The position numbers were made by a program, and so were the translations under genes. A stretch of 64,000 nucleotides of DNA from an uncultured Lachnospiraceae bacterium (GTDB lineage Bacteria > Bacillota > Clostridia > Lachnospirales > Lachnospiraceae), in contig CANTEG010000008.1 in the NCBI GenBank assembly GCA_947652735.1, forward strand, positions 78,878-142,877, read 5' to 3'. Under the pieces are notes generated by a model. The model had not been told where the DNA came from, did not search any database, and worked only from the letters and a program-made list of their open reading frames with translations. This document shows, piece after piece, positions 20,829 through 50,768 of the stretch. Every line of letters starts with the position of its first letter. Position 1 is the first letter of the stretch.

Positions 20829-20829
20829 G

Positions 20830-21726: not shown

Positions 21727-21771
21727 AGTTGGTTTGAATAATTACTAAATTAGAAGCATGAAAGGTAGAAT

Positions 21772-22680: not shown

Positions 22681-22693
22681 GAGTGAGCAATGT

Positions 22694-24747: not shown

Positions 24748-25744
24748 ATGCGAAATAAAAATTTCAATAGTTGTACCTATATATAATTCGGAAAAGTATT
24801 TGACAAAATGTTTAGAATCTATTGCGGGACAATCTTATAATAATTTTGAAGTAATAATGATAAATGATGGTTCCACAGATTTGAGCGAGCAAATTTGTGC
24901 TGGATTTATCAAGGATAACAGGTTTAAATTATATAATCAAAATAATCAGGGCGTGAGTGCAGCTAGAAATAATGGAATAGAAAAAAGTAGTGGTAATTAT
25001 ATAGCGTTTATAGATAGTGATGATTTTATAGCAGAAGATTATTTAGAGAAGTTAGTGAATATATGTAATGGCGATGAGGATTTAATCGTTGGAGGCATTA
25101 TTTATCACAATGAATACAAAATAAGAAAACGAAACCAAAATCAAAAAAGGGTGCCAATGGATGATACAAAAATCAATACTAATGTATATCAGGAATACCT
25201 TAATCAATTAAAAAAACGAATACCTGAGCCTTGTTTTGGTGCACCATATGGAAAACTTTTTAATAGGATTACAATTTTGGATAATCAGTTAAGGTTTGAA
25301 AATGGACAAAACCTTGCAGAAGATTTGGTTTTCAATTTGAGATTTTTACAAAGTGCTGTTAGTGTCAAAGCTACTAATTATACAGGGTACTATTACAGGA
25401 TGTTTGTTGCAAGCTCTCTTTCCAGGATTGCACACAGTCATGATTATACAAGGCAAAGATGGAGCATTGTTGTCAAGGAATATAATTGCCTGTTTGCAGG
25501 GGATAAAATTAATAATAGTGAACGAATAAACAGGATTGCTGAAAAAAATATAGTTTTGTCTGCTTTGTGCGATAAAAATATGGGTATTGCCCAAAAGAAA
25601 CAAACATTTAATAGAATTAATAATGCCAATAAGAACAGTGTTTTTTGGGTGGAATATGTTAAAGTTATATGGAAAAATTGTTTAAAAAGGGTTTATCGGT
25701 GTATGCAATTACTTGTATTTAAGATTAGGAGTCTAAAGGGATGA
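24734..25744 (+). CDS. GT2-family glycosyltransferase
   Basis: 336 residues from the third in-frame ATG (24734), which has AAGGA 8 bases upstream. ISIVVPIYNSEKYLTKCLES and VIMINDGSTDLS are the nucleotide-binding start of GT-A enzymes, AARNNGIE follows, and AFIDSDDFI is the DxD metal site. The C-terminal part is variable. This is the fourth glycosyltransferase besides the initiating PglC-like enzyme. It overlaps the end of wzy by 14 bases and the start of wzx by 4. Confidence 0.9.
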   Translation: MKKHKCEIKISIVVPIYNSEKYLTKCLESIAGQSYNNFEVIMINDGSTDLSEQICAGFIKDNRFKLYNQNNQGVSAARNNGIEKSSGNYIAFIDSDDFIAEDYLEKLVNICNGDEDLIVGGIIYHNEYKIRKRNQNQKRVPMDDTKINTNVYQEYLNQLKKRIPEPCFGAPYGKLFNRITILDNQLRFENGQNLAEDLVFNLRFLQSAVSVKATNYTGYYYRMFVASSLSRIAHSHDYTRQRWSIVVKEYNCLFAGDKINNSERINRIAEKNIVLSALCDKNMGIAQKKQTFNRINNANKNSVFWVEYVKVIWKNCLKRVYRCMQLLVFKIRSLKG

Positions 25745-27195
25745 AATCACCAAGTATTGTTAAAAATTACATATATGATTCTTTGTACCATATTATGACA
25801 TTTTTTATCCCATTAATAACGACACCTTATTTGGCGAGAGTTTTACAACCAGAGGGTGTGGGTACTTTTAGTTATGTACTTTCAATACAAACATACTTCT
25901 CCATGTTTGCAGCATTAGGCACGATTACATATGGAGCGAGGGTTATTGCCCAAAGTAGAGATGATAAGAAATCATTGAGTGAAAATTTTTGGGGAATAGA
26001 AATTTTAACCATTATTACGTCGGCTGTATCCATCTTTTTTTGGCTTATTTTAAGTGCTGTTGTGAAAAACACAGCTTATTTTTTAATATTAACAATTAAT
26101 ATATTGGCAACAACATTTGATATCTCCTGGTTTTTTTCAGGCTTGGAATTATTTAAAACATTGTCAATACGGAATGGCTTATTTAAAATAATAGGGGCTA
26201 TATTTATTTTTACTTTTGTAAAATCTCCTGATGATTTATTTATTTATTTTATGATATATAGTTCGACCGCGTTGTGCTCTAGTATATCTTTGTGGGTTAA
26301 GTTAAAAAAATATATTAATAAGATCAAATTGACTGATTTAAAAATAGGAAAACATTTTAGAGAAACTTTAATATATTTTTTACCTACGATTGCAACATCT
26401 ATTTATACTGTTTTGGATAAAACATTAATAGGTTTAATTGTCAGGGAGCCAAAAGAAAATGGATTTTATGAACAGGCAAACCAGATTGTTAATATTGCTA
26501 AAACAGTGACATTTGGTTCCATAAATACCATTTTAGGTACAAGACTTTCTTATTTGTTTTCTAAAGGCAGTTTTGATGAAATGAAACAAAAGCTACATAC
26601 AGCAATTGATTTTGTTTTTTTAATTGGGTATGGGATGGTTTTTGGTGTTATTGTTGTTGCTAAAGATTTTGTTTTTTTATATTTTGGTGAAGGATATGAT
26701 AAAGTAACATATTTACTTTATTTTCTTATGCCTATCGTAATGATAATCAGTATAAGCGCTTGTTTGAGTAACCAGTATTATGTTCCGGTTGGAAAGCGGC
26801 TTACGAGTGCCAAATATATTATATATGGCAGTGTTACTAATTTTGCACTAAATCTATGTTTAATTCCATGGTTAAAGTCGATAGGGGCATGTATAGCAAC
26901 TTTAATAGCAGAACTGCTTATTTCCATACTATGTGTAAAAGGCTGTGATAATTATTTGAACTGGCATGACATATGGATTAAAAGTGTTAAAAAAGTAATT
27001 GCTGGAGTTAGTATGTTTTTAGGCGTTTCGAGCTTGAATTTTCTGCTTCTTAACTGTAAAGTAGGAACGAGATTTTTGGTTGATGTAGTTACAGGAATGG
27101 GTATTTATTTTATAATGCTTATTTTGTTTAAGGATAGCAGTTTGTCTATTCTGATAGATTGGATTGACAAAAGGAGAAGTAAAAGTGGAAAATAA
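25741..27195 (+). CDS. wzx: Wzx-type lipid-linked repeat-unit flippase
   Basis: 484 residues with about 14 hydrophobic helices. The beginning NYIYDSLYHIMTFFIPLITTPYLARVLQPEGVG is the standard N-terminus of the PST/MOP flippase family, and GTFSYVLSIQTYF continues it. Wzx moves the undecaprenyl-linked repeat unit from the inner to the outer face, supplying Wzy. It overlaps the upstream glycosyltransferase by 4 bases and the second LicD gene by 11. Confidence 0.93.
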   Translation: MKSPSIVKNYIYDSLYHIMTFFIPLITTPYLARVLQPEGVGTFSYVLSIQTYFSMFAALGTITYGARVIAQSRDDKKSLSENFWGIEILTIITSAVSIFFWLILSAVVKNTAYFLILTINILATTFDISWFFSGLELFKTLSIRNGLFKIIGAIFIFTFVKSPDDLFIYFMIYSSTALCSSISLWVKLKKYINKIKLTDLKIGKHFRETLIYFLPTIATSIYTVLDKTLIGLIVREPKENGFYEQANQIVNIAKTVTFGSINTILGTRLSYLFSKGSFDEMKQKLHTAIDFVFLIGYGMVFGVIVVAKDFVFLYFGEGYDKVTYLLYFLMPIVMIISISACLSNQYYVPVGKRLTSAKYIIYGSVTNFALNLCLIPWLKSIGACIATLIAELLISILCVKGCDNYLNWHDIWIKSVKKVIAGVSMFLGVSSLNFLLLNCKVGTRFLVDVVTGMGIYFIMLILFKDSSLSILIDWIDKRRSKSGK

Positions 27196-28021
27196 TATCG
27201 TGTCCAATGAGGATTTTAAAAAGATATGTACGCAAATACTAATTGAATTTAAAAAAATTTGTGAAAAGAATAATTTAACATTTTTTTTAGGGTATGGTAC
27301 TGCACTTGGGGCAGTAAGGCATGGGGGGTTTATACCTTGGGATGATGACATTGATGTTATTATGCCAAGACCTGATTATGAAAAGTTAATCCAGATATAT
27401 AACAATGAAGACGAGAGATATTTATTGTTATGCCACGAAATTGATGACTCATATTTTTATCCATTCGCTAAGTTGTGTGATAAAAGTACAATACTGATTG
27501 AAAAACATTTTGCCAATGATAAAAATATGGGGATATATATTGATATTTTTCCGTTAGATGGAAATGGTAATGAGAGAAAAAGTGCTGAAAAACATTTGCA
27601 TAAATGTATTAAAACACAGCAAAAACTTAATAATGCGATGGCAAAACATTTTTTTAGGGGTAATAACAATGCAATAAAAGAAATAATGCGGTATTTTAGA
27701 TACAGAATCATTAAAAGAATTGGTTCGAAACATTATTATAAAAAATTAGATGATTTATTCAAAAAATATTTGTTGCATGATTCCTTGTATGTATCGAATA
27801 ATTCATGGGGGACAACTAAGGAATTGTTTGAAAAAGATATTTTTGAGCGTTCTGTAGATATTGAATTTGAGGGAAATGTATTCCCGATTGTTGAAAATTA
27901 TGATAAATACCTTAGCTCTTTATATGGTGATTATATGAAGCTGCCTCCGAAAGAAAGTCAGGTCAGTCACCACGATATTATTGTATATTATAAGGAAAAG
28001 GACAAACTAAATGGACTTTAA
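27185..28021 (+). CDS. LicD-family phosphotransferase 2
   Basis: 279 residues from a GTG start at 27185; AGGAG lies 8 bases before it, whereas a TTG at 27164 would swallow that site. LGYGTALGAVRHGGF and IPWDDDIDVIM are the LicD catalytic core, and SLYGDYMKLPP is the common C-terminal motif. It differs clearly from the LicD at 20830, so it may add the same group to another sugar or a different group. Its end overlaps the VanZ-like start by 11 bases. Confidence 0.88.
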   Translation: MENNIVSNEDFKKICTQILIEFKKICEKNNLTFFLGYGTALGAVRHGGFIPWDDDIDVIMPRPDYEKLIQIYNNEDERYLLLCHEIDDSYFYPFAKLCDKSTILIEKHFANDKNMGIYIDIFPLDGNGNERKSAEKHLHKCIKTQQKLNNAMAKHFFRGNNNAIKEIMRYFRYRIIKRIGSKHYYKKLDDLFKKYLLHDSLYVSNNSWGTTKELFEKDIFERSVDIEFEGNVFPIVENYDKYLSSLYGDYMKLPPKESQVSHHDIIVYYKEKDKLNGL

Positions 28022-28613
28022 GTACATGTTTTTAAACTTTTATTATACATATTTCATTAAAATAAATTTTGTTGAGTGGTTAGTGATAGGCTTAATATTT
28101 ATTATTGTTTTTTTAATTGAGCAGTTAAAAAGTGATTCAGAAAATATAAATGTGGATACATTGAAATATAAAATGGGCATTATCAAAGGAGCTCTTTGTT
28201 CATATTATACATTTATTATTATAGTTACAGTTATAAACAGAAAAACGCTGGAAAAAAGATTGTATAATTTTAATTTGTTCTGGACGGTGAAAGAGGTTAT
28301 TAATAAGCATAACTGGTTATTACTCCAGGAGATTATTGTAAATATTATTATGTTTATTCCCATTGGTATGCTTCTCGCAAGTTTAGTTCATAAAGAAAAG
28401 AGGCATGGTATATTTGGGGCAAGTGTATTCTTTATATCAATATGTTTAAGTGCAGTTATTGAAATATTACAATATATTTTTTTGAAGGGAACATTGGAAT
28501 TAGATGATGTTATTTATAATTTTATAGGGGCAGCAATAGGACTGCTATTTAATACATTGTTTCATAAAGGAATGCTGTGGGTGAGAAAAAATGAAAAGGA
28601 TAAACAAAATTGA
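28011..28613 (+). CDS. VanZ-family membrane protein
   Basis: 200 residues with about five hydrophobic helices. NLFWTVKEVI, then QEIIVNIIMFIPIGMLLASL and ISICLSAVIEILQYIF and DDVIYNFIGAAIGLL, are the VanZ family motifs. VanZ gives low-level teicoplanin resistance in enterococci by an unknown route. Relatives in polysaccharide loci have no defined role. It overlaps LicD 2 (11 bases) and the first acyltransferase (23 bases), so it is part of the same transcript. Confidence 0.85.
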   Translation: MDFKYMFLNFYYTYFIKINFVEWLVIGLIFIIVFLIEQLKSDSENINVDTLKYKMGIIKGALCSYYTFIIIVTVINRKTLEKRLYNFNLFWTVKEVINKHNWLLLQEIIVNIIMFIPIGMLLASLVHKEKRHGIFGASVFFISICLSAVIEILQYIFLKGTLELDDVIYNFIGAAIGLLFNTLFHKGMLWVRKNEKDKQN

Positions 28614-29607
28614 TATTTTAAAAGGTATTGCGATTATATGTATGGTTTTAGGACATGCACTACAATTATACAATGGTGAGGATTATAGAAATGAAAAAAT
28701 ATTTTATTCAAATGTAGTTTATAAAATTATATATACATTTCATATGCCGTTGTTTATGCTGGTTAGCGGCTATTTATTTTTCATATCTTTACAAAAAGAT
28801 AATAGCTTTAAAATGATAAAACGAAAAGTGATTACATATAGTATACCAATAATCGTGTTTGCAATTTTAAAAACGCTTCCTCATGCATATATTCAGGGAT
28901 TTTCATTTCTTCTCATTAAGGACGTCGCATATAATGTGCTGCATACATTATGGTTTTTATGGGCATTGATATATGCGTGTGTTTCCGTGTGGGTTTTTGA
29001 AAAAATAAATAATCAAAATTTAAAATGTATGATGTGTATGATTGCGATAGCCTTAGTGTTTATTACACCAGATATTCTTATGTCCAATGTATTTAAATAT
29101 ACAATACCTTACTTTTTTGTGGGATATTGTTATGGAAAAAAACAATTAAATTTCAATAAAAGAATATATTGGTTGAGTGTTCCTGTGTGGGTTTTAATGT
29201 TATTTTTTTATGGAAAAGAACATTATATTTATGTAAGTGGTATTAATTTAAATATCTTTCGCTCGTCCAATTTTGAAATTATGGAAAAATTATATATAGA
29301 TTTATATCGTTACATAATTGGCTTGGTGGGCTGTTTAGCTGTGTACAAAATTGTAAATGTTTTATGTAAAGCTGAGGAAAATTTTATTGTAAAAGGGATT
29401 GCAGCTTTGGGCAAAAATACGTTAGGAATGTATATATTAACAACAGAAATTATGAATGAAATAATCTATAAATTTTTAGAAAATAATTCGTATAATTTTA
29501 TTCGAACAGCTATAATTTCAGTAGTTGTTATAACAATCAGTTTTTTCTTAACAGAGCTTATAAATAAGACAAAATACTTAAAACTTCTAATATTGGGGAA
29601 AAGATGA
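28591..29607 (+). CDS. Acyltransferase-3 family membrane protein 1
   Basis: 338 residues with about 10 hydrophobic helices. RINKIDILKGIAIICMVLGHA carries the catalytic-region histidine typical of this family, and YTFHMPLFMLVSGYLF is the second family motif. These integral enzymes add acetyl or other acyl groups to sugars during or after repeat-unit assembly. The FHMPLF version is the WcaF/YiaH-like group common in Gram-positive capsules. It is the first of three such genes in a row. Confidence 0.88.
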   Translation: MKRINKIDILKGIAIICMVLGHALQLYNGEDYRNEKIFYSNVVYKIIYTFHMPLFMLVSGYLFFISLQKDNSFKMIKRKVITYSIPIIVFAILKTLPHAYIQGFSFLLIKDVAYNVLHTLWFLWALIYACVSVWVFEKINNQNLKCMMCMIAIALVFITPDILMSNVFKYTIPYFFVGYCYGKKQLNFNKRIYWLSVPVWVLMLFFYGKEHYIYVSGINLNIFRSSNFEIMEKLYIDLYRYIIGLVGCLAVYKIVNVLCKAEENFIVKGIAALGKNTLGMYILTTEIMNEIIYKFLENNSYNFIRTAIISVVVITISFFLTELINKTKYLKLLILGKR

Positions 29608-29619
29608 GGAGAAATATTA

Positions 29620-30663
29620 ATGATTGATAAAAAAGTAAGTGAAGTACTGAAAAGAATGAACTTGTTTTGTACAATAGTCATTGTATTGGGTCATTCGTAT
29701 AATCTTATAAATTTTAGTACGCAAAACAATGTGATATCATTTATTGAATATTTCATATCCTATGCAATTGGAGGAGTGGGTGTTCCGTATTTTTTTATAC
29801 AAAGCTCGTTGTTCCTTTACTCAAAGGAGCGTGACGCAAAAACAGTATATAAAAGCAGATTTAAAAGTTTAGTAGTACCATATCTTGCATGGAACATAAT
29901 ATATACAATTTTTTACACTATTATGAATGTATTTGGGATTGGTGCCTCAGGAATGAAAGTATTTAATTTAAAGTCGGTGTTAAGGGCAGTGTTTTTGCAT
30001 GGTTCTAATACCACTTTTTGGTTTATGTACCAACTGATTCTCTTTACGGCACTGTATCCATTAATTAATTTTCTTAGAAAGCACAAAAAGTGGTTTTATG
30101 GATGTTATATTTTGTTTTTCGTCATCTATTTATGGAAAGGTGAAATTTTTGGATGGACAGATGTATCAAGTGTATTTATTTCATTAAGACGATTATTGGA
30201 ATATGGATTTGGAATTATTATTGTTGATAATATACATATATTTTCAAAAGTATTTAAATATATCAAAAAGAATTTTTTAATGGTGGTTCTGTTGTTGTTT
30301 GGCTGCATTGGCACATATATATTATACACATTAAATAAGAATAATATGATTTTAGAAAAAACAGAAGGACTTGTTAATTTGGTGTTTCTGTTTGTAATGT
30401 TTATTGTATTATATAATAAAGATAGTGGAACAGATACGTTTATATTTAAGACTACATTCCTGATTTATGCGATGCATCCGGCAATTATAATATCGCTTAG
30501 AAATTTTGCATCTGTTATTTTGCCAAATAAGGATATATGGATTATAACATGTTATTTGTGTTCTCCTGCAATTGCTATTGGCGTAGTGCTTTGTTTGATA
30601 GTTATTGTAAAAAAGCTTTGCCCCAAATTGTTGTTTATGCTAAATGGATTTCGAACTATTTGA
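29620..30663 (+). CDS. Acyltransferase-3 family membrane protein 2
   Basis: 347 residues with about 10 hydrophobic helices. MNLFCTIVIVLGHSYNL has the family histidine in LGHS, and GVPYFFIQSSLFLYS replaces the usual F-x-S-G-Y-L motif. TFLIYAMHPAII near the C-terminus is typical. It is only distantly similar to the proteins encoded on either side, so it is not a fresh duplication. Expected role: O-acylation of one sugar of the repeat unit. Confidence 0.84.
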   Translation: MIDKKVSEVLKRMNLFCTIVIVLGHSYNLINFSTQNNVISFIEYFISYAIGGVGVPYFFIQSSLFLYSKERDAKTVYKSRFKSLVVPYLAWNIIYTIFYTIMNVFGIGASGMKVFNLKSVLRAVFLHGSNTTFWFMYQLILFTALYPLINFLRKHKKWFYGCYILFFVIYLWKGEIFGWTDVSSVFISLRRLLEYGFGIIIVDNIHIFSKVFKYIKKNFLMVVLLLFGCIGTYILYTLNKNNMILEKTEGLVNLVFLFVMFIVLYNKDSGTDTFIFKTTFLIYAMHPAIIISLRNFASVILPNKDIWIITCYLCSPAIAIGVVLCLIVIVKKLCPKLLFMLNGFRTI

Positions 30664-30743
30664 TAGAAGTGTTTAATTAAATTGTATTAATGGCTGAGAA
30701 ATGGCTTACTTTGCGTACAAAATAACTGAGGAGATGAAACTGT

Positions 30744-31742
30744 ATGAATAGAAATATTCAAATGTTAAGAGGAATAGCGTGCGTTTATATATGTTTACAG
30801 CATTTTTCGATTTTTAACCACTATGGGTATGGAGCAATTGGTGTTGAGGTGTTTTTTGTATTGTCAGGATATTTGACGTTGGAAAATTTAAAGAGAAAAA
30901 AGTTGGATAAGACATTTTTAATTAATAAGTGTCTAAAAATTCTACCATTATATTACTTGGGCACGGTTGTAGTATTTGCTGTGGGCATATGTTTTCCGTC
31001 ATTATTTTCTAATCTTACCTTTAATCTGAAAAATTTAATGAATTCCGTATTGCTAATTCCAGAGAATGTATTTTACATATATCCAGGTTGGACATTGACT
31101 TATATGTTCTATTTTTATATTTTATTTTTTCTTGCTAACTCAATTGCAAAAGGAAACATTTCTAAGACATACATATGGACGTGTATTTTGATATTGGTTA
31201 TGTGCGGAGGTAGTTTTTTACTTCCGGCTAATTATGTAACGAATTTGATAAAAGAGTATAATTCGCCAGTTATGATTGAATTTTTGTTTGGATTATCTGC
31301 ATGTTATTTTAAAGAGTATATTTTAACTGTTACAAATAAAATAAAAAATAATATAAAGACTTTAATGTTTATAGTAGGGATTGGCTCTGTTTTCTTTTTC
31401 GGATGGAACAATATGCAAAAAAGATATTTTCTGCCTACGTTGGTTGTTACAATTATAATGGTATTATGTATTGAAACGAATTATAATGAACAAAACATAT
31501 TATATAAATTGTTTGGTAAAATAGGTGATGCTTCTTACACAATTTACATTTTACATCCGTTGCTAATTCGTCCTATCGATAAGATTCTGCTATCGCTACG
31601 GCTTGAACAAAATATGTATGTGTTATTAATTGCTTTAAGTTTATGTATTGTTGTATTTATGCTGATTATAGCTGATAAATTAATATATCAGATACTGTAT
31701 TACATAAAAGGGTATTATCGGAGGATAAAAAACCACTTGTAA
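30744..31742 (+). CDS. Acyltransferase-3 family (OafA-like) membrane protein 3
   Basis: 332 residues with about 10 hydrophobic helices. NIQMLRGIACVYICLQHF has the RG-x-A...H motif of OafA-type enzymes and GVEVFFVLSGYLTL is the second signature. YTIYILHPLLIRP ends the membrane domain. There is no C-terminal SGNH domain. It begins 80 bases after the second acyltransferase, with GAGGAG upstream of the ATG. It ends the AT-rich part of the locus. Confidence 0.88.
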   Translation: MNRNIQMLRGIACVYICLQHFSIFNHYGYGAIGVEVFFVLSGYLTLENLKRKKLDKTFLINKCLKILPLYYLGTVVVFAVGICFPSLFSNLTFNLKNLMNSVLLIPENVFYIYPGWTLTYMFYFYILFFLANSIAKGNISKTYIWTCILILVMCGGSFLLPANYVTNLIKEYNSPVMIEFLFGLSACYFKEYILTVTNKIKNNIKTLMFIVGIGSVFFFGWNNMQKRYFLPTLVVTIIMVLCIETNYNEQNILYKLFGKIGDASYTIYILHPLLIRPIDKILLSLRLEQNMYVLLIALSLCIVVFMLIIADKLIYQILYYIKGYYRRIKNHL

Positions 31743-31750
31743 TCATAACA

Positions 31751-31790
31751 CGCACGTAATACAATATTTTAAAGTATTGTATTCTAATTT
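31751..31790 (+). terminator. Possible terminator at the end of the AT-rich block
   Basis: AATACAATATT pairs with AAGTATTGTATT at about 31757-31781, followed by CTAATTT. It is AT-rich and the T run is poor, so termination may be partial. Confidence 0.4.
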
Positions 31791-31876
31791 GATTTGTGGC
31801 TTAGTCGTTCTTGACTAATCTGTACTCAAACAAACCTTCATGCAAAATTTACCTGTAGATATGTAGAAATCCGCAG

Positions 31877-31906
31877 TTGACATTATGCGGTAATAATAGT
31901 TAAAAT
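31877..31906 (+). promoter_or_regulatory. Sigma-A promoter of the PglF-like dehydratase gene
   Basis: TTGACA (31877-31882) is a perfect -35, 18 bases before TAAAAT (31901-31906). Inverted copies of CTGCGGAA / TTCCGCAG flank 31919-31970, between promoter and start, and could be an operator or leader hairpin. So this gene can be expressed apart from the upstream block. Confidence 0.6.
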
Positions 31907-31996
31907 ATAAAGGATTGCTTCTGCGGAATATATGGTTTTGACACGCTAAAATGATACTGCTTTTCCGCAGTGCTTTACTGGGAGGAAATGGATACT

Positions 31997-33919
31997 ATGA
32001 ACAGAAGAATGGTGTCATTATATATAATTGATACGGTAATACTGATAAGCATATATGGTCTGCTTGCAATTTCGTCCTTATACGGTGTGAGTTCAATCGC
32101 GGTAAATGGTGAGTTTACACTTCTTAAGATGGCAGTTTTATATGTATGTATTATGGTTATGCGGCTGTTGTTCAAAGTTTATTCCAATGTTTGGAGATAT
32201 GCAAACACATCAACGTATCTGAGGCTGGTTTTTGCTGACCTGATTGCAGGTACATTGTACATTGCTATGGGCAGGGTAATATCGGTCGTAAGCCTTGGAG
32301 CTGCATACAGTATTATCCTTGTATTTACCATACTGCTTATAACGCTTATGAGCCGTTTGATTTATCAGTACTTATATTCGAAGTCCGCACAGAGAAGTGA
32401 CGCAGGTCTTACTGGTGTGGAGGACGGAATTCATAAAATAAATATTGCAATTGTAGGGGCAGGAAATGTGGGAGCATCTTTAGCGGACGAGCTGATAAGA
32501 AATCCCCTTGCCCATTACATACCATATTGTTTTATAGATAAGGATTCGCAAAAGGCAGGAAAGCAGATAAATGGTATTAAGGTTTATTATGAAGATGATG
32601 GAATAACGGATGTTATAAAGTCAATGCCGATACAGGAAATTGTAATTGCACTGCCCGATGCAACCTCAGAGGACAAAACAAAGCTTTATAATCTTTATAA
32701 AGCGACAGGATGCAAGGTTAAACTCTATGATTATCCGTTGGGTGAGAACGAAAATAATTCTACCAAACGAGGTGTGAGAGAGTTTCAAATAGAAGACCTG
32801 TTGTTTCGCGACAGTGTTTCCGTCAAGGGAGCGCTTGCAGGTACATATTACACGGACAAGGTTGTTATGGTTACGGGTGGAGGCGGTTCCATCGGCTCTG
32901 AGCTTTGCAGGCAGATAGCAAAAAGGCAGCCAAAAAAGCTTGTCATTATGGACATATACGAAAATAATGCATATGATATACAGCAGGAGCTTATTAACAG
33001 ATATGGTGATAAGCTGAAGCTGGAAGTTTACATTGCCTCTGTACGGGATTTTAAGCGTCTGGAGGAAATATTTAAAAAGACTACCCCACACATAGTATTT
33101 CACGCGGCAGCACACAAGCATGTGCCTTTGATGGAGAACAGTGCATGTGAGGCAATCAAAAATAATGTGTTAGGCACGTACAATGTTGCCAATTTATCAG
33201 AGCAGTATAATGTAGAGAAATTCCTGCTTATATCTACGGATAAAGCGGTCAATCCTACAAATGTGATGGGAGCCAGCAAACGTATTTGTGAAATGGTTAT
33301 CCAGTGCAGACAAGACAGCAAAACAGATTTTACGGCAGTACGATTTGGAAATGTTTTGGGAAGCAACGGAAGTGTTATTCCGTTATTTAAAAGGCAGATA
33401 GAATCAGGCGGACCGATTACCCTTACTGATAAGAGAATTATCCGTTATTTTATGACGATACCTGAAGCTGTTGGGCTGGTCATGGAGACCTGTGCAATGG
33501 CAAAGAACGGTGAGTTATTTGTTTTGGATATGGGAAAGCCTGTTAAAATACTTGATTTGGCAGAAAATATGATACAGCTTTCGGGATTAAAGCCATATGA
33601 GGATATAGATATTGTCGAAATTGGCTTAAGACCGGGCGAAAAGCTCTATGAGGAGCTTCTGATGAAGTCTGAGGAGCTTGACAAGACATCCAATGAAATG
33701 ATTTTCATAGAACGTGATAAGCCCCTTAGCAGGGACGAAGTGGACCGCAAGCTTGCCATATTGTTACAGGCAGTTGAGGAGGAGGGCTATGATGTCATCG
33801 TTCAGGCTATCAGGGACACAGTGCCCACATATCATACGCCGGAGGAGATTAACCAAAGGGCAGGGGAGTCCAGGGAAATGGCATTGGCATTTAATGAAGT
33901 GGCAGTGGCGACAGAGTAA
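31997..33919 (+). CDS. PglF/CapD-type membrane-bound UDP-HexNAc 4,6-dehydratase
   Basis: 640 residues from the ATG at 31997, downstream of GGAGG; other nearby starts (31988, 32009) are possible. Four membrane helices occupy about 1-130. A first Rossmann domain (IAIVGAGNVGASLADEL) is followed by the catalytic short-chain dehydrogenase-type domain with VTGGGGSIGSELCRQI, HAAAHKHVPLME and LLISTDKAVNPTNVMGASKR. Members make UDP-4-keto-6-deoxy-HexNAc from UDP-GlcNAc. With the PglE-like and PglC-like genes at 13.9-15.8 kb it completes the first steps of the repeat unit, although it lies at the other end of the locus. Confidence 0.93.
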   Translation: MNRRMVSLYIIDTVILISIYGLLAISSLYGVSSIAVNGEFTLLKMAVLYVCIMVMRLLFKVYSNVWRYANTSTYLRLVFADLIAGTLYIAMGRVISVVSLGAAYSIILVFTILLITLMSRLIYQYLYSKSAQRSDAGLTGVEDGIHKINIAIVGAGNVGASLADELIRNPLAHYIPYCFIDKDSQKAGKQINGIKVYYEDDGITDVIKSMPIQEIVIALPDATSEDKTKLYNLYKATGCKVKLYDYPLGENENNSTKRGVREFQIEDLLFRDSVSVKGALAGTYYTDKVVMVTGGGGSIGSELCRQIAKRQPKKLVIMDIYENNAYDIQQELINRYGDKLKLEVYIASVRDFKRLEEIFKKTTPHIVFHAAAHKHVPLMENSACEAIKNNVLGTYNVANLSEQYNVEKFLLISTDKAVNPTNVMGASKRICEMVIQCRQDSKTDFTAVRFGNVLGSNGSVIPLFKRQIESGGPITLTDKRIIRYFMTIPEAVGLVMETCAMAKNGELFVLDMGKPVKILDLAENMIQLSGLKPYEDIDIVEIGLRPGEKLYEELLMKSEELDKTSNEMIFIERDKPLSRDEVDRKLAILLQAVEEEGYDVIVQAIRDTVPTYHTPEEINQRAGESREMALAFNEVAVATE

Positions 33920-34037: not shown

Positions 34038-34225
34038 TCTCTTATTCAGAACGGTGGAGTCATAAGGGACTGTGAAGCCGTGGCAACCCCGCTTTTTGTG
34101 GAAGGTGCCGACCAGAGCGAGAATCATAACAAGTTGTATTTCAGTATACAGGATTATATGACTATCGAGCAATAAGAGGATTTGAATAGTGACCTTCAAA
34201 TCCGGTTGTTGTGACCGGATTTTTT
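34038..34225 (+). ncRNA. SAM-I (S-box) riboswitch with terminator, leader of metK
   Basis: The aptamer spans about 34038-34180. Its closing helix pairs CTCTTATT (34039-34046) with AATAAGAG (34171-34178). Inside are the S-box landmarks GGGACTGTGAAGCCGTGGCAACC and AGGTGCC. Two mutually exclusive hairpins follow. The antiterminator pairs GGATTTGAA (34178-34186) with TTCAAATCC (34195-34203). The terminator pairs AAATCCGGT (34198-34206) with ACCGGATTT (34214-34222) and ends in a T run. They share 34198-34203, and the antiterminator also takes the end of the aptamer's closing helix. SAM binding should therefore switch transcription off. Control of metK by SAM is the classic S-box arrangement. Confidence 0.85.
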
Positions 34226-42017: not shown

Positions 42018-42068
42018 AAATTGTCTGTTTGTATGGAGGAAGCAGGTTTCGAAAGGTTAAAAACCTTA

Positions 42069-42240
42069 GCGCCATGTACCTAAGTCAGTTGTGACTGTCC
42101 GTGTGACGGCTCTCGCATGTTAGGTCGACGAGGTAAAGAGTTATCGAAGTATTCGGCGGATGCTCTTTCGCGCAGCTGAGCGTGTCATGTAAGGTGAAAT
42201 ATGAGGGTAACCTCAAAACAAAGCCAAGCAGTCAGCCGTA
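42069..42240 (+). ncRNA. glmS ribozyme
   Basis: The conserved core is readable: AGCGCC at the expected cleavage point (between A42068 and G42069), then CGACGAGG, AGAGTTATCGAAGTATTCGG, CGGATGCTCT, and near the end CAAAACAAAGCCAAG. The two strands AAGAG and CTCTT, and AGCGCC with its partner, form the double pseudoknot. GlcN6P is the cofactor for self-cleavage, after which the mRNA is degraded, so GlmS product represses its own gene. The leader from 42246 to 42440 holds no further gene. Confidence 0.92.
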
Positions 42241-44432: not shown

Positions 44433-45158
44433 TTATTCGCTTTCTGTATTATCTGTGTTCTCTGAATTTTCCATGCTTTCCTTTACAGAGGATGCGGCAA
44501 TCATTGCAGAGTCAATTGCCATAAAGTCATGGTCACCGATGTAGTATGTGTTACCATCCTTGATGATGGTAACTGTTACGATGACAGGTTCTGCATAGCT
44601 GACATTTAAGCATCCTGCGTGTAATATTTCGAGCATGCCTGTAGAAAATTCGGTCTGGTACTGCTCCATTGTGTAATTGTTGTAATCGCCATTTGCAACC
44701 TTTTCGTTGAAGTGTTCCACATATGCGGTGACATCCTCTGAGGTTTGGGCAAATATATCAATCGGGTATATGGTAACATCAACACAGTATTGTGTGCCTG
44801 ATTTATATGCCTTTGAAACCTTGTAGTTGACTTTTCGGTAAATTTCCTTTGCAAGCTTCACATATTCAGCCCGCATGTCAGGAGCTTCGGATATCTGTAT
44901 GCTGTAATAAGAAAGAATATTGTCGGCAAGATATTCGGCATTTGCCTCATAAAGGGCATCCGCATCGTCCTTATTGGCACCTGTTGACTCTATATAATCT
45001 TTTGTAGCACCTAGGTAATTTATGGCAATCAGACTTTTTATGTAGTTTTGGTATCTTTTCTCGTACTTATCCGAGCAACCGGTAAGGGATGCAAGCAGCA
45101 TTGCTGCGATAAGGACTAGGGCGAGCTTTTGCGTTTTCAAGTTAAGACTGGTTTTCAT
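44433..45158 (-). CDS. Exported lipoprotein of unknown function
   Basis: 241 residues. A basic start, a hydrophobic stretch and the lipobox LTGC (Cys about residue 28) mark it as a lipoprotein on the outer membrane face. The mature part has helices (YIKSLIAINYLGA, YEANAEYLADNILSYY) and then a beta-rich region (QYCVDVTIYPIDIF, VIVTVTIIKDGNTYYI). I recall similar DUF5105-type lipoproteins in Firmicutes but cannot place it. GGAGGA precedes the ATG on the minus strand. Confidence 0.65.
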   Translation of the reverse strand: MKTSLNLKTQKLALVLIAAMLLASLTGCSDKYEKRYQNYIKSLIAINYLGATKDYIESTGANKDDADALYEANAEYLADNILSYYSIQISEAPDMRAEYVKLAKEIYRKVNYKVSKAYKSGTQYCVDVTIYPIDIFAQTSEDVTAYVEHFNEKVANGDYNNYTMEQYQTEFSTGMLEILHAGCLNVSYAEPVIVTVTIIKDGNTYYIGDHDFMAIDSAMIAASSVKESMENSENTDNTESE

Positions 45159-45338: not shown

Positions 45339-46187
45339 ATGGAACCACAATTTAAAACAGCTTCATTTGGTGGATATGACAAAAAGGCAGTTGATACATA
45401 TATAGAGGAGACCCGCACAGCACACAAGAAAGAGGTGGATGAGCTTAAGGCAAACGTTTTAAAGCTTAGCGAAACCGTAAAAAATCTCCATACGATGAGA
45501 GAGGTAAATCTCAACGAATCGTCAAGCACGATTGATAACCTGAAAAAGGTAAATGATGAGCTTCAGGATGAGATTACGCAACTGAAAAATCAACTTGTAA
45601 ATTATAAAAATAGAGATGAGGAATCAGCTAGCAGATATGAGTCTATATCGAGAACCCTGTTAGAGGCAAGAGAAAGTGCAGATGCCCTCTTAAAGGAAAC
45701 GACTGATAAGTGTGATGCCATAACGGCAGAAAATCAGGCGGAATGTGACAGACTCAGAAGTGAGACTGAGGCAAACTGTGAGAGACTTACAAATGAAACC
45801 GTGGCAAGCTGCGAGAAGCTTCGTGCAGAAACTACAAGCTCCTGTCAGGAAATGAAAGAGTCCACTTATGCAAATTGTGATGACCTTAAAAGGCGTACAA
45901 AGGAAGAAACTGACAACCTTAGGGAAGAAACAGAAAACAGTTGCAGAGAGGCAAATCGTCAGACTCAGGAATACTGTGCGGCTCTTCGGGCAGAGACAGA
46001 AAATGAGTGTGAAGAACTTCGTAATCAGGCAAGGACAGATGCGTACAATGCAAGGATGGCAGTTAAGAGAGAATGTGAAAATCTGGGAATCTTTATGTCA
46101 GAATTGATAGGTGCTGTTGACAACGTAGTAAAAGCGTGTGATGACACTAAGACAATAGCAGCACAGCAGTTTCCGGATTTGCAGTAA
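45339..46187 (+). CDS. DivIVA-like coiled-coil protein with a cysteine every 11 residues
   Basis: 282 residues, cytoplasmic. The start FKTASFGGYDKKAVDTYIEE fits the DivIVA/GpsB membrane-binding N-terminus, and a heptad coiled coil covers about 25-120. From residue 125 comes an 11-residue repeat starting with cysteine: Cys at 125, 136, 147, 158, 169, 180, 202, 213, 224 and 246. Only 191 (Thr) and 235 (Ala) break the register. A typical unit is CERLTNETVAS. Hendecad repeats form straight or right-handed coiled coils, so the cysteines would line one face. A polar-organising or division role is plausible from the N-terminus; the cysteine array is unexplained. Confidence 0.75.
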   Translation: MEPQFKTASFGGYDKKAVDTYIEETRTAHKKEVDELKANVLKLSETVKNLHTMREVNLNESSSTIDNLKKVNDELQDEITQLKNQLVNYKNRDEESASRYESISRTLLEARESADALLKETTDKCDAITAENQAECDRLRSETEANCERLTNETVASCEKLRAETTSSCQEMKESTYANCDDLKRRTKEETDNLREETENSCREANRQTQEYCAALRAETENECEELRNQARTDAYNARMAVKRECENLGIFMSELIGAVDNVVKACDDTKTIAAQQFPDLQ

Positions 46188-46235: not shown

Positions 46236-46289
46236 TGTTTAATACGGATGCAGGCAGACATTTCACTATTTATACAGGAGGAAACGCGT

Positions 46290-48047
46290 ATGGTATTAGA
46301 GAACATATATCTTAGAAAAGCAGTTGCCAAGGCGGGGTATGTTGTTATTGTAAAAACCTGTCAAAAAAACAGCAAAGCGAGCAAGGTTGAATACATTTCT
46401 CCAAATGCATCCATGCTTGGTATGAATATTGAAATGATTAACAAGGGCATGAAGCTGGTGGAGGACTATATTTTTCCTGAAGACAGGGAGCAGGTTGCAA
46501 GAACTGTGGTAAATGCCCTCAAATCAAATGTTGACAGCTATGTCCATGAGTACAGGATGGTCGGTGACGATGGCACGCTTTATAATGTGTCAAATGAAAT
46601 TGCCATTGTGGATGAGGATGAGGATACCTTCAAGGTTGAAATGTACATAAGCTTAGTGCAGGCAAAAAGTAATCATGCGGCAGAGACGCGAAAGGGCTAT
46701 GACGGCTCAACTGCCACATATGAGCATATCCTTGAAAATGACTGGTTTCCGATAATGATGAAAAGCTTTTCGGAATTTTCCCTGCTCTATTCAGCGTTTG
46801 TTGATATGGATGGCAAGGTTGTATTTGAACCTGTGGGTCCGGCAACCAATTTAGGGGATTTCTATGATTTATTTGAGAAGCCGGCATACAAGGAATATTA
46901 TAAATTTATTGCCAGCACGGCACTGGATTCAGATAAAGCAGTTATCATTGACCGTGAGGAAGGCGGAACCGGAAAAATATGTGCCGCTCCTATTGTAGTA
47001 AACGGAGAGGCAAGGGGACTTTGGATTCTTGGCTCGTATACAAAGGAAGAAACAGAGACGCTTAAGGAGATATGTGAATATCATCGTACCATAGCGGGCA
47101 TAATGTCAGATTATCTTTACAAAAATGAACTTGCCGCCATTGAAGCTGCAAAATCTAAGGGGGCAGGTATTAAGCTTCGTGAGGAGCTTGCAAGGCAGAG
47201 TATAATTAATGATGCACTTTCCAAGGTGAACAGTAGACTGATAGACTCAGTTGAACAGGTTGTGGGCGAATTGCTGAGGGATGTTGGCATCAACATGGAC
47301 ATAGATAAAATGATGTTTTACACGGTTGCCAAAACGCCGAAAGCAGATTTGGTTCTAAAAAATTACTGGGATGTGAGTGGAAGTATACCGGGGGAGGAGA
47401 TTGTAAAGCTGCTTCCGGGAAATAAATATATATTTGCACATCAGTTTGAGAAAAATGATGGGCGTTATATTGTGGATAACAATAATATGACTGCCGATGG
47501 CAAATTGAATATTATGAGATATGGTTTTAAAGCAGCGTTGGCACATGCAATCTATATGAATGATGAGTTATATGGCATGCTTGTGTTTGCCGAGTGTAAA
47601 TCAGACAGGGCTTGGACGGTGGAGGAACTCAGGTTTGCAAAGAGTATTACACTGGTGATTCAAAATATACTTGAAAATGCATATGGTGATGATAATATTA
47701 GAAATGTGAATAAACATCTGATAGAGACATACAATAACTTCGATGTGGGAATATTTGTTAGAGACGCCTACACGGGAGAAGTGCTTTTCTCGAATAAAAA
47801 AATGGATGACATGCTGGGATATGATTTTAAATACGGTGACAGTTGTGAGCTTATTACAGATTTGCGTGACAGGTATGACAATATTTCAGGTATGAGAAAA
47901 TCATTTATTACAAAAAATAAAGTGACAAAATGGAGAAGCTACATTCAGAAACTTGACGCAATTATGGATATTACAGAGATAAACATGGAGTGGCTCAGTG
48001 GCCAGCCGGCATCCCTTATTATTCTTAGAGAAGCAGGAGATTCTTAG
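46290..48047 (+). CDS. PAS/GAF sensor protein lacking an output domain
   Basis: 585 residues from the ATG at 46290, which has GGAGG 8 bases upstream. Residues about 15-125 are a PAS_3-type fold (YISPNASMLGM, FPEDREQVAR, EYRMVGDDGTLYNVSNE). About 155-285 looks like a PocR/GAF-type sensor (GKICAAPIVVNGEARGLWILG). A helical linker about 290-345 leads to a second GAF-like domain (about 345-480), and the C-terminus (about 490-580) is another PAS (VGIFVRDAYTGEVLFSN). I find no GGDEF, EAL, kinase or DNA-binding region. It does not look truncated, since the frame ends after a complete PAS. It probably acts through a partner. Confidence 0.65.
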   Translation: MVLENIYLRKAVAKAGYVVIVKTCQKNSKASKVEYISPNASMLGMNIEMINKGMKLVEDYIFPEDREQVARTVVNALKSNVDSYVHEYRMVGDDGTLYNVSNEIAIVDEDEDTFKVEMYISLVQAKSNHAAETRKGYDGSTATYEHILENDWFPIMMKSFSEFSLLYSAFVDMDGKVVFEPVGPATNLGDFYDLFEKPAYKEYYKFIASTALDSDKAVIIDREEGGTGKICAAPIVVNGEARGLWILGSYTKEETETLKEICEYHRTIAGIMSDYLYKNELAAIEAAKSKGAGIKLREELARQSIINDALSKVNSRLIDSVEQVVGELLRDVGINMDIDKMMFYTVAKTPKADLVLKNYWDVSGSIPGEEIVKLLPGNKYIFAHQFEKNDGRYIVDNNNMTADGKLNIMRYGFKAALAHAIYMNDELYGMLVFAECKSDRAWTVEELRFAKSITLVIQNILENAYGDDNIRNVNKHLIETYNNFDVGIFVRDAYTGEVLFSNKKMDDMLGYDFKYGDSCELITDLRDRYDNISGMRKSFITKNKVTKWRSYIQKLDAIMDITEINMEWLSGQPASLIILREAGDS

Positions 48048-48116: not shown

Positions 48117-49106
48117 ATGGCAGGTTCAGATGTTGGTATAGATTTAGGAACAGCCAGTATTTTAGTATATGTTAAGGGTAAAGGAGTAGTATTGAAAGAA
48201 CCATCTGTCGTAGCATACGACAGAGATACAAATTCCATTAAGGCAATAGGTGAAGAAGCAAGACTTATGCTGGGAAGAACCCCGGGTAACATAGTTGCAG
48301 TGAGACCATTGAGACAGGGAGTTATTTCAGACTACAAGATTACCGAAAAAATGCTCAAGTATTTTATTGAGAAAGCGGTTGGAAAAAGCTTTTTCGGCAG
48401 GAGGCCGAGAATAAGCGTATGTGTACCGTCAGGTGCGACTGAGGTAGAGAAGAAGGCAGTTGAGGATGCCACATATCAGGCGGGTGCAAGGGATGTTTAT
48501 ATTATCGAGGAACCTGTTGCGGCAGCAATCGGTGCAGGTATAGACATTTCAAGACCTTGTGGAAACATGATTGTAGATATAGGCGGGGGAACGACAGATA
48601 TTGCGGTTATATCCCTCGATGGAATAGTTGTAAATTCATCCCTTAAAATTGCAGGAGATGATTTTGATGATGCAATCGTAAGATTTATGCGAAAAAGGCA
48701 CAATCTACTCATAGGTGAGAGAACAGCCGAGGACATTAAGATAAATATTGGAACCTGTTATAAAAGACCGGAAAATATTACAATGGATATACGGGGACGT
48801 AATCTTGTGACCGGACTTCCGAAAACCGTTACGGTATCTTCTGATGAGACGGAGGAAGCGCTGAGAGAGGTTACTGCACAGATAGTTGATGCAGTTCACT
48901 CTGTGCTGGAGCGCACTCCACCTGAGCTTTCTGCTGATATAGCAGACAGAGGTATAGTATTAACAGGCGGTGGGGCATTGCTTCATGGCTTGGAGGATCT
49001 TATCGAGGAAAATACCGGAATAACGACAATGACTGCGGAGCAGCCGCTTACGGCAGTTGCAATTGGAACAGGAAAATATATAGAATTTTCAAGTGAAAAG
49101 AATTAG
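48117..49106 (+). CDS. mreB: MreB/Mbl-type rod-shape actin homologue
   Basis: 329 residues. DVGIDLGTASILVYVKGKG is the phosphate-1 loop, IEEPVAAAIGAGIDI and VDIGGGTTDIAVISLDG are phosphate-2, and GIVLTGGGALLHGLEDLI is the adenosine motif. It polymerises under the membrane and directs wall synthesis. The location directly upstream of flgF/flgG parallels the mbl-flhO-flhP order in Bacillus, so it is likely the Mbl-type paralogue. GGAAAGGAG precedes the ATG. Confidence 0.93.
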   Translation: MAGSDVGIDLGTASILVYVKGKGVVLKEPSVVAYDRDTNSIKAIGEEARLMLGRTPGNIVAVRPLRQGVISDYKITEKMLKYFIEKAVGKSFFGRRPRISVCVPSGATEVEKKAVEDATYQAGARDVYIIEEPVAAAIGAGIDISRPCGNMIVDIGGGTTDIAVISLDGIVVNSSLKIAGDDFDDAIVRFMRKRHNLLIGERTAEDIKINIGTCYKRPENITMDIRGRNLVTGLPKTVTVSSDETEEALREVTAQIVDAVHSVLERTPPELSADIADRGIVLTGGGALLHGLEDLIEENTGITTMTAEQPLTAVAIGTGKYIEFSSEKN

Positions 49107-49117
49107 GAGTTGAGAAA

Positions 49118-49900
49118 ATGGTAAGAGCGCTATTTACAGCATGGACAGGTATGCGCAACGAACAAAGACGTATGGACGTTGTGACAAATAACATGGCGAA
49201 TGCGGATACCACGGGATTTAAAAAGATTGATGTTACTTCACAGTCCTTTGACAGACAGCTTGCAGTAAAAATCAATGATTCCACAGAGGGCGTAAATGTG
49301 ATACGTGGTATAGGCGGCATGACCTTGGGAGTAAAAATAGGTGAGACATACTATGATATGACTCAGGGCAATTTCAGGGAGACCGGAAGCCAGTACAATT
49401 TTGCATTGGACGGCAGAGGCTTTTTTACCATTAGCACAACGGACAAGGGTGGAACCGAACATATCAGATATACGAGAGACGGAGATTTCACTGTGACCAG
49501 GGAAGGTTATCTTGTGACCAAGGATGGAGATTATGTGTTAGGCGATGGCGGAAACCGTATTCAGATTCCGGGAGCCAATTTGGTAGATATCAGCGTGAAT
49601 GAAAATGGAGAAATTTACGTTGGAAACAATTATATTTCTACTTTGCAAATAGTTGATTTTGATAATTATGATGCACTTTCAAGCTATGGGGAAAACATGT
49701 ATGAGCCTGTAGAGGGTGCTAACATAATTCAGTCAAATGCGACCGTTACCCAAAGATATCTTGAGATGTCAAACGTTAACATGGTAACAGAGATGGTTGA
49801 TATGATAGCAATCACAAGAGCATATGAGACAAACCAGAAGATGATTCAGACGGTTGATAACACACTTGAAAAAGCAACGACAGAAATTGGTCGTGTTTAA
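49118..49900 (+). CDS. flgF: Flagellar rod/hook-basal body protein (FlgF/FlhO type)
   Basis: 260 residues. FTAWTGMRNEQRRMDVVTNN and MANADTTGFKK form the N-terminal flagellar rod motif, and MSNVNMVTEMVDMIAITRAYE is the C-terminal one. Together they form the D0 coiled coil of axial proteins. It starts 11 bases after mreB. By size and order it is the first of the two FlgG-like rod proteins (FlhO in Bacillus). Confidence 0.9.
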   Translation: MVRALFTAWTGMRNEQRRMDVVTNNMANADTTGFKKIDVTSQSFDRQLAVKINDSTEGVNVIRGIGGMTLGVKIGETYYDMTQGNFRETGSQYNFALDGRGFFTISTTDKGGTEHIRYTRDGDFTVTREGYLVTKDGDYVLGDGGNRIQIPGANLVDISVNENGEIYVGNNYISTLQIVDFDNYDALSSYGENMYEPVEGANIIQSNATVTQRYLEMSNVNMVTEMVDMIAITRAYETNQKMIQTVDNTLEKATTEIGRV

Positions 49901-49928
49901 TATAGAGCTTGAATGGAGGTAATAAAAT

Positions 49929-50768
49929 ATGATGCGTTCATTATGGACTGCGGCATCAGGAATGAGAGCACAGCAGACAAACGTAGATAATATAGCAAAC
50001 AATCTTGCAAACGTTAATACAATAGGATATAAGGCACAGGAGGCTACATTTAAGTCCCTTCTTTATCAGAACCTGCAATCAACATCAACCAATAATGCAG
50101 GCGAAAACAAGCCTGTTGCGGCAGAAGTGGGACTTGGTACGAGGACTGCGGCAATCACAGCAATGTTTACCCAGGGAAATATTACGGATACGGAGAGTCC
50201 GTTCTGTATGGCAATTGAGGGAGACGGATTTTTCCAGGTAAGAAATTCCGATGGAGATATTTTGTATACAAGAGACGGAAGCTTTAATATATCACCGACA
50301 GATGACGGAAACTACTTATGTACATCTGATGGTTACTTTGTGTTAGACCAGTATGGAAACAATATTGTGCTTCCAAACACATATGTTGCGGCTGATTTGC
50401 AGGTTACAAAGGAAGGTGTTCTCGGATTTCCTGGAGCAGATGGAAATGTTGTCCCACTCACGGGAACAAACGCACAGGGACAGACATATGAGATAACCTT
50501 TGGGCTTGTACAGTTTAACAATCCTGCCGGACTTACCAAGGAGGGCGGAAACAACTATGCGGTAAGCGTTGCATCGGGAGACCCGATAGCTGAGGGAACC
50601 GGAAATGCGACACCAAGTAAGATACACCAAAAGCATATGGAGTCATCAAATGTAGATGTTGCAAACGAGATGGTAGACCTTATCGTGGCACAGAGAGCGT
50701 ATGAGATGAACTCAAAAGCAATACAGGCAACAGACGAAATGATGCAGCAGGCAAATAACCTGAGATAG
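49929..50768 (+). CDS. flgG: Flagellar distal rod protein
   Basis: 279 residues. RSLWTAASGMRAQQTNVDNI and ANNLANVNTIGYK at the start, and SSNVDVANEMVDLIVAQRAYEMNSKAIQ at the end, are full FlgG signatures. It builds the distal rod outside the membrane after export. GGAGGT precedes the start; a second ATG follows immediately. Confidence 0.95.
   Translation: MMRSLWTAASGMRAQQTNVDNIANNLANVNTIGYKAQEATFKSLLYQNLQSTSTNNAGENKPVAAEVGLGTRTAAITAMFTQGNITDTESPFCMAIEGDGFFQVRNSDGDILYTRDGSFNISPTDDGNYLCTSDGYFVLDQYGNNIVLPNTYVAADLQVTKEGVLGFPGADGNVVPLTGTNAQGQTYEITFGLVQFNNPAGLTKEGGNNYAVSVASGDPIAEGTGNATPSKIHQKHMESSNVDVANEMVDLIVAQRAYEMNSKAIQATDEMMQQANNLR

Follow-up and report, generated by a model that had tools for sequence, protein, structure and literature searches.

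The locus and its genes

The window, a stretch of 64,000 nucleotides of DNA from an uncultured Lachnospiraceae bacterium, contains a gene for a 282-residue protein, here called protein X, with a regular stripe of cysteines along a long predicted helix. The gene for X sits between a divergent lipoprotein-like gene and a gene for a PAS/GAF sensor-like protein, which is followed by a gene for an MreB/Mbl-family actin homologue. The features of this region, in window coordinates, are listed below.

44433..45158, reverse strand: lipoprotein-like gene, named from its N-terminal sequence; no Pfam match
45339..46187, forward strand: protein X, cysteine-hendecad rod; open reading frame of 282 amino acids
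45372..45395, forward strand: DivIVA-like motif GYDKKAVD, residues 12-19; one mismatch to the published pattern
45390..45674, forward strand: near-heptad N-terminal coiled coil, residues 18-112, from the hydrophobic period
45678..46106, forward strand: hendecad rod, residues 114-256, with Cys at position 0 of ten units
45711..46076, forward strand: the ten on-register cysteine codons (TGT/TGC), C125 to C246
46107..46184, forward strand: C-terminal helix with the off-register C267
46198..46232, forward strand: terminator-like stem of 15 pairs directly after X; consensus match only
46248..48047, forward strand: PAS/GAF sensor-like protein (PAS_3, GAF); conserved neighbour
48117..49106, forward strand: MreB/Mbl-family actin homologue (PF06723, 7e-142); conserved neighbour

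The terminator-like stem separates X from the PAS/GAF gene, so that transcription of X may be independent; the region holds four such sites, against a mean of 2.9 in shuffles. The PAS/GAF open reading frame opens at a GTG (46212) inside the stem, and the ATG at 46248 or the one at 46290 is the more likely start. Directly after the MreB/Mbl gene lie two flagellar rod-type genes of the FlgE/F/G families (49118-50768).

A cysteine register on a hendecad rod

Protein X has eleven cysteines, ten of which (residues 125, 136, 147, 158, 169, 180, 202, 213, 224 and 246) fall on a single 11-residue register, while the last (267) is off register. The spacings are 11, 22 and 21 residues, and the repeating unit reads C-x-x-L-K/R-x-E-T-x-x-E, with core residues at positions 0, 3 and 7. 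The stripe is interrupted at two unit positions, 191 (Thr) and 235 (Ala). When eleven cysteines were placed at random in 282 residues, ten shared one register in none of 200,000 trials (hypergeometric bound 8e-10). Within residues 114-256, where all ten cysteines share one register, none of 200,000 shuffles matched. The stripe of X is real, just as the initial annotation had described it; the coordinates given there, 45711-46079, are also right, since the C125 codon starts at 45711 and the C246 codon occupies 46074-46076.

Residues 114-250 show a hydrophobic period of 3.66, as expected of an 11/3 helix, and the value is unchanged when the cysteines are set neutral. The hendecad is thus a trait of the whole rod and not of the cysteines alone, and the proposal of a straight stripe on a hendecad helix stands. 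X has both the 3-4-4 core spacing and the 11/3 period of hendecad coiled coils, and insertions and deletions occur as whole 11-mers.

Relation to the DivIVA-like superfamily

X had been labelled DivIVA-like on first reading. PMC9858780 defines the DivIVA-like domain by the motif GY[DN]xx[QE]V[DN] followed by a heptad coiled coil, through which the protein homodimerises, and describes the known members of the superfamily as dimeric coiled coils, some extending into a longer rod. The motif of X, GYDKKAVD, matches at G, Y, D, V and D, with Ala in place of Q/E, and X would escape the published search pattern. A heptad-like coiled coil does follow, with hydrophobic periods of 3.56 (residues 18-105) and 3.52 (60-112), and of 3.62 for residues 18-60 alone. 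The profile scores lie under the curated cut-offs: Pfam DivIVA (PF05103) gives 25.9 bits against a cut-off of 28, and 21 bits in a genome-wide search, and TIGR03544 (DivI1A domain) gives 17 bits against a cut-off of 22. Because both scores lie below cut-off, we call X DivIVA-like and not DivIVA proper, an assignment from motif and coil that is weak but consistent. As the genome also encodes two further DivIVA-family proteins that exceed the Pfam cut-off, one of them beside a gene that reads as sepF-like, X would be at most an additional DivIVA relative.

What X has in common with the superfamily (DivIVA, GpsB, FilP, Scy, PolyDIV) is the N-terminal GYD..VD and then the near-heptad coil; the Ala in the motif, the cysteine hendecad core, the adjoining MreB/Mbl locus and the sub-threshold scores set it apart. 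FilP and Scy of the Actinobacteria likewise have a DivIVA-like head followed by long hendecad coiled coils, but they belong to a different phylum and their cores are Ala-rich according to PMC9858780, whereas X has Cys at position a and Thr at h. An identification of X as Scy itself was rejected (NF041483, 29.4 bits against a cut-off of 1040).

Copper storage proteins were also considered. In Csp1 and Csp3 the cysteines lie one helical turn apart (CXXXC) and line a four-helix bundle. These proteins resemble the structure proposed for X in having many cysteines directed inward in a helical bundle, but the cysteines of X are at least 11 residues apart, and with spacings of 11, 22 and 21 and no CXXXC the identification was discarded. 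Two orthologues (L009 and L011) have one extra cysteine each, which creates a single CXXXC.

Conservation of the stripe

X has matches in 34 of the 37 genomes of the genus searched, its own included. Sequences were read for 30 of these 34, the other four being without a locus. In the resulting alignment of 30 rows (A1), the ten cysteine columns contain 274 Cys, 4 Val, 1 Leu, 1 Ala and 20 gaps, with no Ser at all. When every on-register unit is counted over the 30 distinct sequences among 36, the 360 positions comprise 294 Cys, 30 Ala, 27 Thr, 7 Val, 1 Leu and 1 Ser, and nearly all of the Ala and Thr fall within two fixed non-Cys units. Mean pairwise identity, calculated for nine of the ten cysteine columns with column 213 omitted because of gaps, is 0.955 (0.66 for column 202 alone), compared with 0.80 at the Thr position, 0.53 at the Leu position and 0.52 at the other rod positions. 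Both TGT and TGC occur at each of the same nine columns, which argues that selection acts on the residue.

The rod also obeys a length rule. The anchor-to-anchor distance came to exactly 11, 12, 13 or 15 hendecads in every one of the 34 orthologues, among 35 distinct ones, that allowed the measurement (L197 could not be anchored, and L023 and L041 have no central anchor). In three relatives, 33-bp tandem DNA repeats are still visible; in X itself the units have long diverged, leaving one tandem array of 2.2 copies with 77% match.

These results bear on the notion that tandem duplication of one Cys-bearing 11-mer spread the cysteines by drift, with no selection on them. The exact 11-residue steps in unit number and the surviving 33-bp repeats are what such a process would leave, and the few-Cys orthologues described below already have a cysteine in the last on-register unit. 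However, it is difficult to see how drift could have held the cysteines near identity, with mixed codons, while the other positions of units this diverged fell to 0.52. Duplication may explain the origin of the stripe but not its upkeep, and we give the drift reading only a very slight chance.

Gene neighbourhood and origin of the stripe

The order X - PAS/GAF - MreB/Mbl is found in the window's own genus, in four other genomes with Cys-type X (G092, G172, G673 and G760) and in two whose X has few cysteines (G192 and G125); for G192 (L222), the place of X was taken from a separate reading and not from the neighbourhood listing. For G067, from a further Cys-type genus, the contig stops within the PAS/GAF gene. 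The lipoprotein-like gene is near X in all ten Cys-type loci (L220, L221, L224-L227, L031, L032, L034 and L036), although it is separated from X by another gene in G673 and co-directional with X in G172. It had no match in the stretch read around X of G192 and G125. The linkage of the MreB/Mbl gene to the flagellar rod genes has a different distribution, being kept in G192 and G125 and missing in G092, G172, G673 and G760.

Of 20 other Lachnospiraceae loci around MreB/Mbl, none has the pair of X and PAS/GAF genes upstream, with one of the 20 (G053) ending too near to judge. Within the genus, neither X nor the PAS/GAF protein was found in the one-contig genome G019 or in genome G013, which is 84% complete, and only part of the PAS/GAF gene was found in G018. 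Because both partners were not found in G019 and G013, the distribution suggests that they are lost or gained together.

When did the stripe arise? A tree built from 31 MreB/Mbl sequences groups the genomes with X in a single clade (support 100/98), from which G125 and then G192 branch off before the Cys-type genera; the latter join at 88/78, below the starred support level. Read along the register, the G192 orthologue (L042) has C, six Ser, R, Y, C, K, V and C, and that of G125 has A, S, R, Q, C, C, A and C. The initial annotation had looked to an alignment of homologues to learn whether the cysteines are conserved. Within the genus they are indeed not freely replaced, but the two early-branching orthologues approach such replacement, keeping the hendecads with only three on-register cysteines each. 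Both already carry Cys at the final on-register unit as well as within the C-terminal helix. Since G125 and G192 combine few cysteines with the same neighbours, the full stripe is most likely derived, having arisen once the two genes were already neighbours; duplication of units may have carried the cysteines along the rod.

The same stripe in other proteins

Genomes were searched with a profile (A2) of 66 positions of cysteine hendecads, which is Cys-heavy and could miss stripes with different flanks. Within the bacterial family Lachnospiraceae it matched 16 of 396 genomes, from 13 of 307 genera. A class-wide sample gave three matches in 343 genomes, two of them from the window's own genus and the third discarded as an antisense frame; a phylum-wide sample gave two in 348, both from the own genus. 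In the samples searched, the stripe is confined to one bacterial family. Among the titles and abstract openings retrieved from the open-access literature, none dealt with cysteine hendecads in bacteria.

The matches fall into three groups. Group I consists of X orthologues (7 genomes, 5 genera). Group II proteins share an AGNIAEAALxLNGIFEAAQ domain and have 4 to 19 on-register cysteines (8 genomes, 7 genera). Group III is a single protein from G137; its DivIVA-like head differs from that of X, and its relatives in G057 and G203 have no stripe. The group II rods have the same C-x-x-[LM]-x-x-x-T one-register hendecads as X, but they have no DivIVA-like head, mostly reversed flank charges and a different genomic setting. 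Occurrence of the stripe in families with different heads speaks for convergence, as far as the sequences allow, and an exchange of rod segments is also possible.

Several group II genes have sortase or pilin genes nearby. Family searches found a class C sortase, a pilin and signal peptidase I near the group II gene of G182 (L231), a sortase and a signal peptidase in G684 (L235), a sortase in G132 (L236), and a pilin and a signal peptidase in G083 (L228). A signal peptidase gene also lies near the group II gene of G704 (L229) and beside one copy in G228 (L232). No sortase was recognised by eye near the group II genes of G146 and G233 or those of the rest of G228. There was no Pfam match above cut-off in two group II members and no NCBIfam match in three. 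The coiled-coil family (L228, L229, L231, L235, L236), which has no visible signal peptide, may be an unrecognised part of pilus assembly. The longest stripe seen is in a 556-residue frame of G146 (L043/L195), with 19 on-register cysteines in one run; no pilus genes were recognised by eye in the stretch read around it.

The wider group II family, with matches in 33 of 298 genomes, is mostly not of the cysteine type. At least three on-register cysteines occur in 7 of the 30 loci read, and others have either no hendecads or ones of an Ala/Ser type (for example L307, L312 and L320). Separately, a protein that looks FliH-like (L050, in G066) has two cysteine hendecads, and two viral contigs (L112 and L148) have Arg-rich open frames with Cys every 11 residues, which are tandem repeats of another kind.

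How the chains might pair

The AlphaFold2 monomer of X (pLDDT 86.5, pTM 0.48) has helices at 15-171 and 174-277 with one break, and structure matches to this model resemble hairpins. In a longer orthologue (L028), however, the predicted break is at 150-151, whereas the point homologous to residues 172-173 of X lies near 205. The break thus does not track the sequence, and we read the predicted break and the hairpin-like matches as artefacts of the modelling. Moreover, the lengths of the two arms on either side of the central anchor are uncorrelated (r = -0.03, n = 32). With arms that vary independently and a predicted break whose position is inconstant, an intrachain hairpin is unlikely.

The charges that flank the core point to a different arrangement. 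In parallel coils, opposite flanks face each other, while in antiparallel coils like flanks do. In group I the mean charge is +0.57 at position 4 and -0.53 at position 10; of 417 units in 35 proteins, 164 have the combination (+,-), one has (-,+), none is like-charged and 252 have at least one neutral flank. Group II has mostly the reversed signs (36 (-,+) and 7 (+,-), with 7 like-charged, in 82 units of 11 distinct proteins), yet the flanks are again opposite, in 43 units against 7. The long G146 frame (L043), tallied separately from group II, shows the same sign as group I in 14 of its 20 units. In the single group III protein (seven units), position 3 is rarely hydrophobic, and a coil is therefore doubtful on its sequence.

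Opposite flank charges are the pattern of a parallel coil with its core centred on position 7. They suggest a parallel dimer in which each core cysteine would lie opposite its twin, although the charges could partly serve salt bridges within one helix. Since the midpoint of the flanks is position 7, Thr would point at the axis, with Cys and Leu flanking it at about 33 degrees. In ideal parallel dimers with a radius of 4.7-5.3 Å and a rotation of -20 to 0 degrees, the CB-CB distance between paired cysteines is 4.8-8.0 Å, and up to 10.3 Å at other settings. In short, the data show the register, the conservation, the length rule and the charge pattern; the parallel dimer, with Cys in its core, is our inference.

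Successive thiols on one helix are 16.7 Å apart, so that only pairs between chains could react. Two suggestions of the initial annotation must be recast accordingly: neither a redox ladder of disulfides nor a metal site is supported along one helix, where neighbouring thiols are this distant, and each is conceivable only between chains. For a third suggestion, that the cysteines carry lipids, no sign was noticed.

What the cysteines may do

Our best explanation, to which we give about an even chance, is that X forms a parallel homodimeric rod of DivIVA-like type whose core contains thiols, and that the cysteines serve mainly for packing. The protein, which is probably cytoplasmic, would consist of the near-heptad stretch and then 11-15 continuous hendecads, depending on the species. 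In the hendecad core, Cys would occupy position a, Leu d, and Thr, pointing straight at the axis, h. Each Cys would sit opposite its counterpart in the other chain, so that about ten Cys-Cys' layers would be stacked at intervals of some 16.7 Å. Cys would then serve as the small core residue with which two hendecad strands can pack together, and in an anaerobe it would stay reduced. Together with the actin homologue, the rod would presumably scaffold the envelope or cell-shape machinery, and its thiol pairs may be lockable by oxidation or soft metals under stress.

Among the options, packing is best in keeping with the non-Cys relatives, and we take it as the basic role. In these relatives the same position is often small, with six Ser in a row in L042 and Ala in L052 and L058, the last two having come from a filter that itself required a small residue there. 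A small residue is also called for in dimeric hendecads, according to PMC9858780, at the single core position of each repeat that points at the axis. In the model, however, the axis-pointing residue is Thr and not Cys, so this need supports cysteine packing only indirectly, and our confidence in the best explanation was reduced slightly on that account. If packing were all, Ser (one base change away) and Ala should appear oftener than in 0 and 1 of 280 ungapped cells, and the restriction of the stripe to one bacterial family in the samples searched likewise suggests something more specific than packing. Since close relatives keep the stripe and other rod proteins of the bacterial family share it, the thiols are probably present for a reason.

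What might that reason be? One candidate is a redox-lockable rod, in which oxygen or an oxidant would induce interchain disulfides that stiffen or tether the rod and report stress to the actin homologue or the PAS/GAF protein. The near-invariance of the cysteines, with no Ser in the ten aligned columns, fits this idea, as do the twin that each on-register Cys would face in a parallel dimer, the gain of the stripe in separate protein families, and a conserved PAS/GAF neighbour that, like X, was not found in the one-contig genome G019. On the other hand, the modelled CB-CB distances of 4.8-8.0 Å, and up to 10.3 Å, are on the long side for a disulfide unless local shifts occur, anaerobes have a reducing cytosol, and the mostly-Ser orthologue of G192 has the same two neighbours. 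We consider such a redox rod rather unlikely, and we rate as improbable a second chemical scheme, in which each Cys-Cys' layer would hold one Cu(I), Zn(II) or similar ion, up to ten per dimer. Thiol pairs do recur along the core, and a bridging ion would fit their interchain spacing no worse than a disulfide would. Nevertheless, each layer offers two thiols only, with 16.7 Å to the next; X lacks the close CXXXC spacing of the copper storage proteins, and no metal-transport family turned up among the nine X neighbours scanned for families.

A quite different role would be that of a membrane helix such as those of apolipoproteins or perilipins, amphipathic with an 11/3 period and resting on lipid with its Cys/Leu/Thr face. 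Both X and the apolipoproteins are built of 11-mer repeats, and the best Pfam match of X by E-value is in fact Apolipoprotein A1/A4/E (PF01442, 7e-8). Its 32.8 bits are far under the 90-bit cut-off, though, and X was rejected as a member of that family. The face takes up no more than three of the eleven positions, acidic residues predominate over basic ones in the rod (21 K+R and 33 D+E in 137 residues), and the paired flank charges fit helix-helix contact better; such a membrane role is very unlikely.

We also offer a broader proposal, which is tentative and less likely than not; we put thiol chemistry as a function, taken overall, at the same odds. Lachnospiraceae would have evolved thiol-cored parallel hendecad rods, with up to 19 on-register cysteines per chain, more than once, beside MreB/Mbl and in sortase-pilus loci, and the paired thiols would be switchable through interchain disulfides or bridging soft-metal ions. 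Dimeric hendecad rods have been described as having Ala-rich cores; here, one syntenic gene provides a series from mixed or Ser-type to Cys-type, and rods of the Cys type turn up again in another family, where the flank charges are mostly the reverse of those in group I. Should the thiols have a chemical function, X would represent a bacterial scaffold rod that responds to redox state or metals; should they serve for packing only, it would embody a natural rule for straight two-stranded rods. X itself should be soluble.

Other features of the window

Positions 20000-32000 have a GC content of 0.28-0.35, against about 0.40, and carry glycosyltransferase, polysaccharide biosynthesis and acyltransferase genes; this segment looks like a surface polysaccharide cluster of foreign composition. 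A SAM riboswitch (34039-34135) lies upstream of an open reading frame at 34269, and a glmS ribozyme (42057-42235) lies upstream of a glmS-like open reading frame at 42441.
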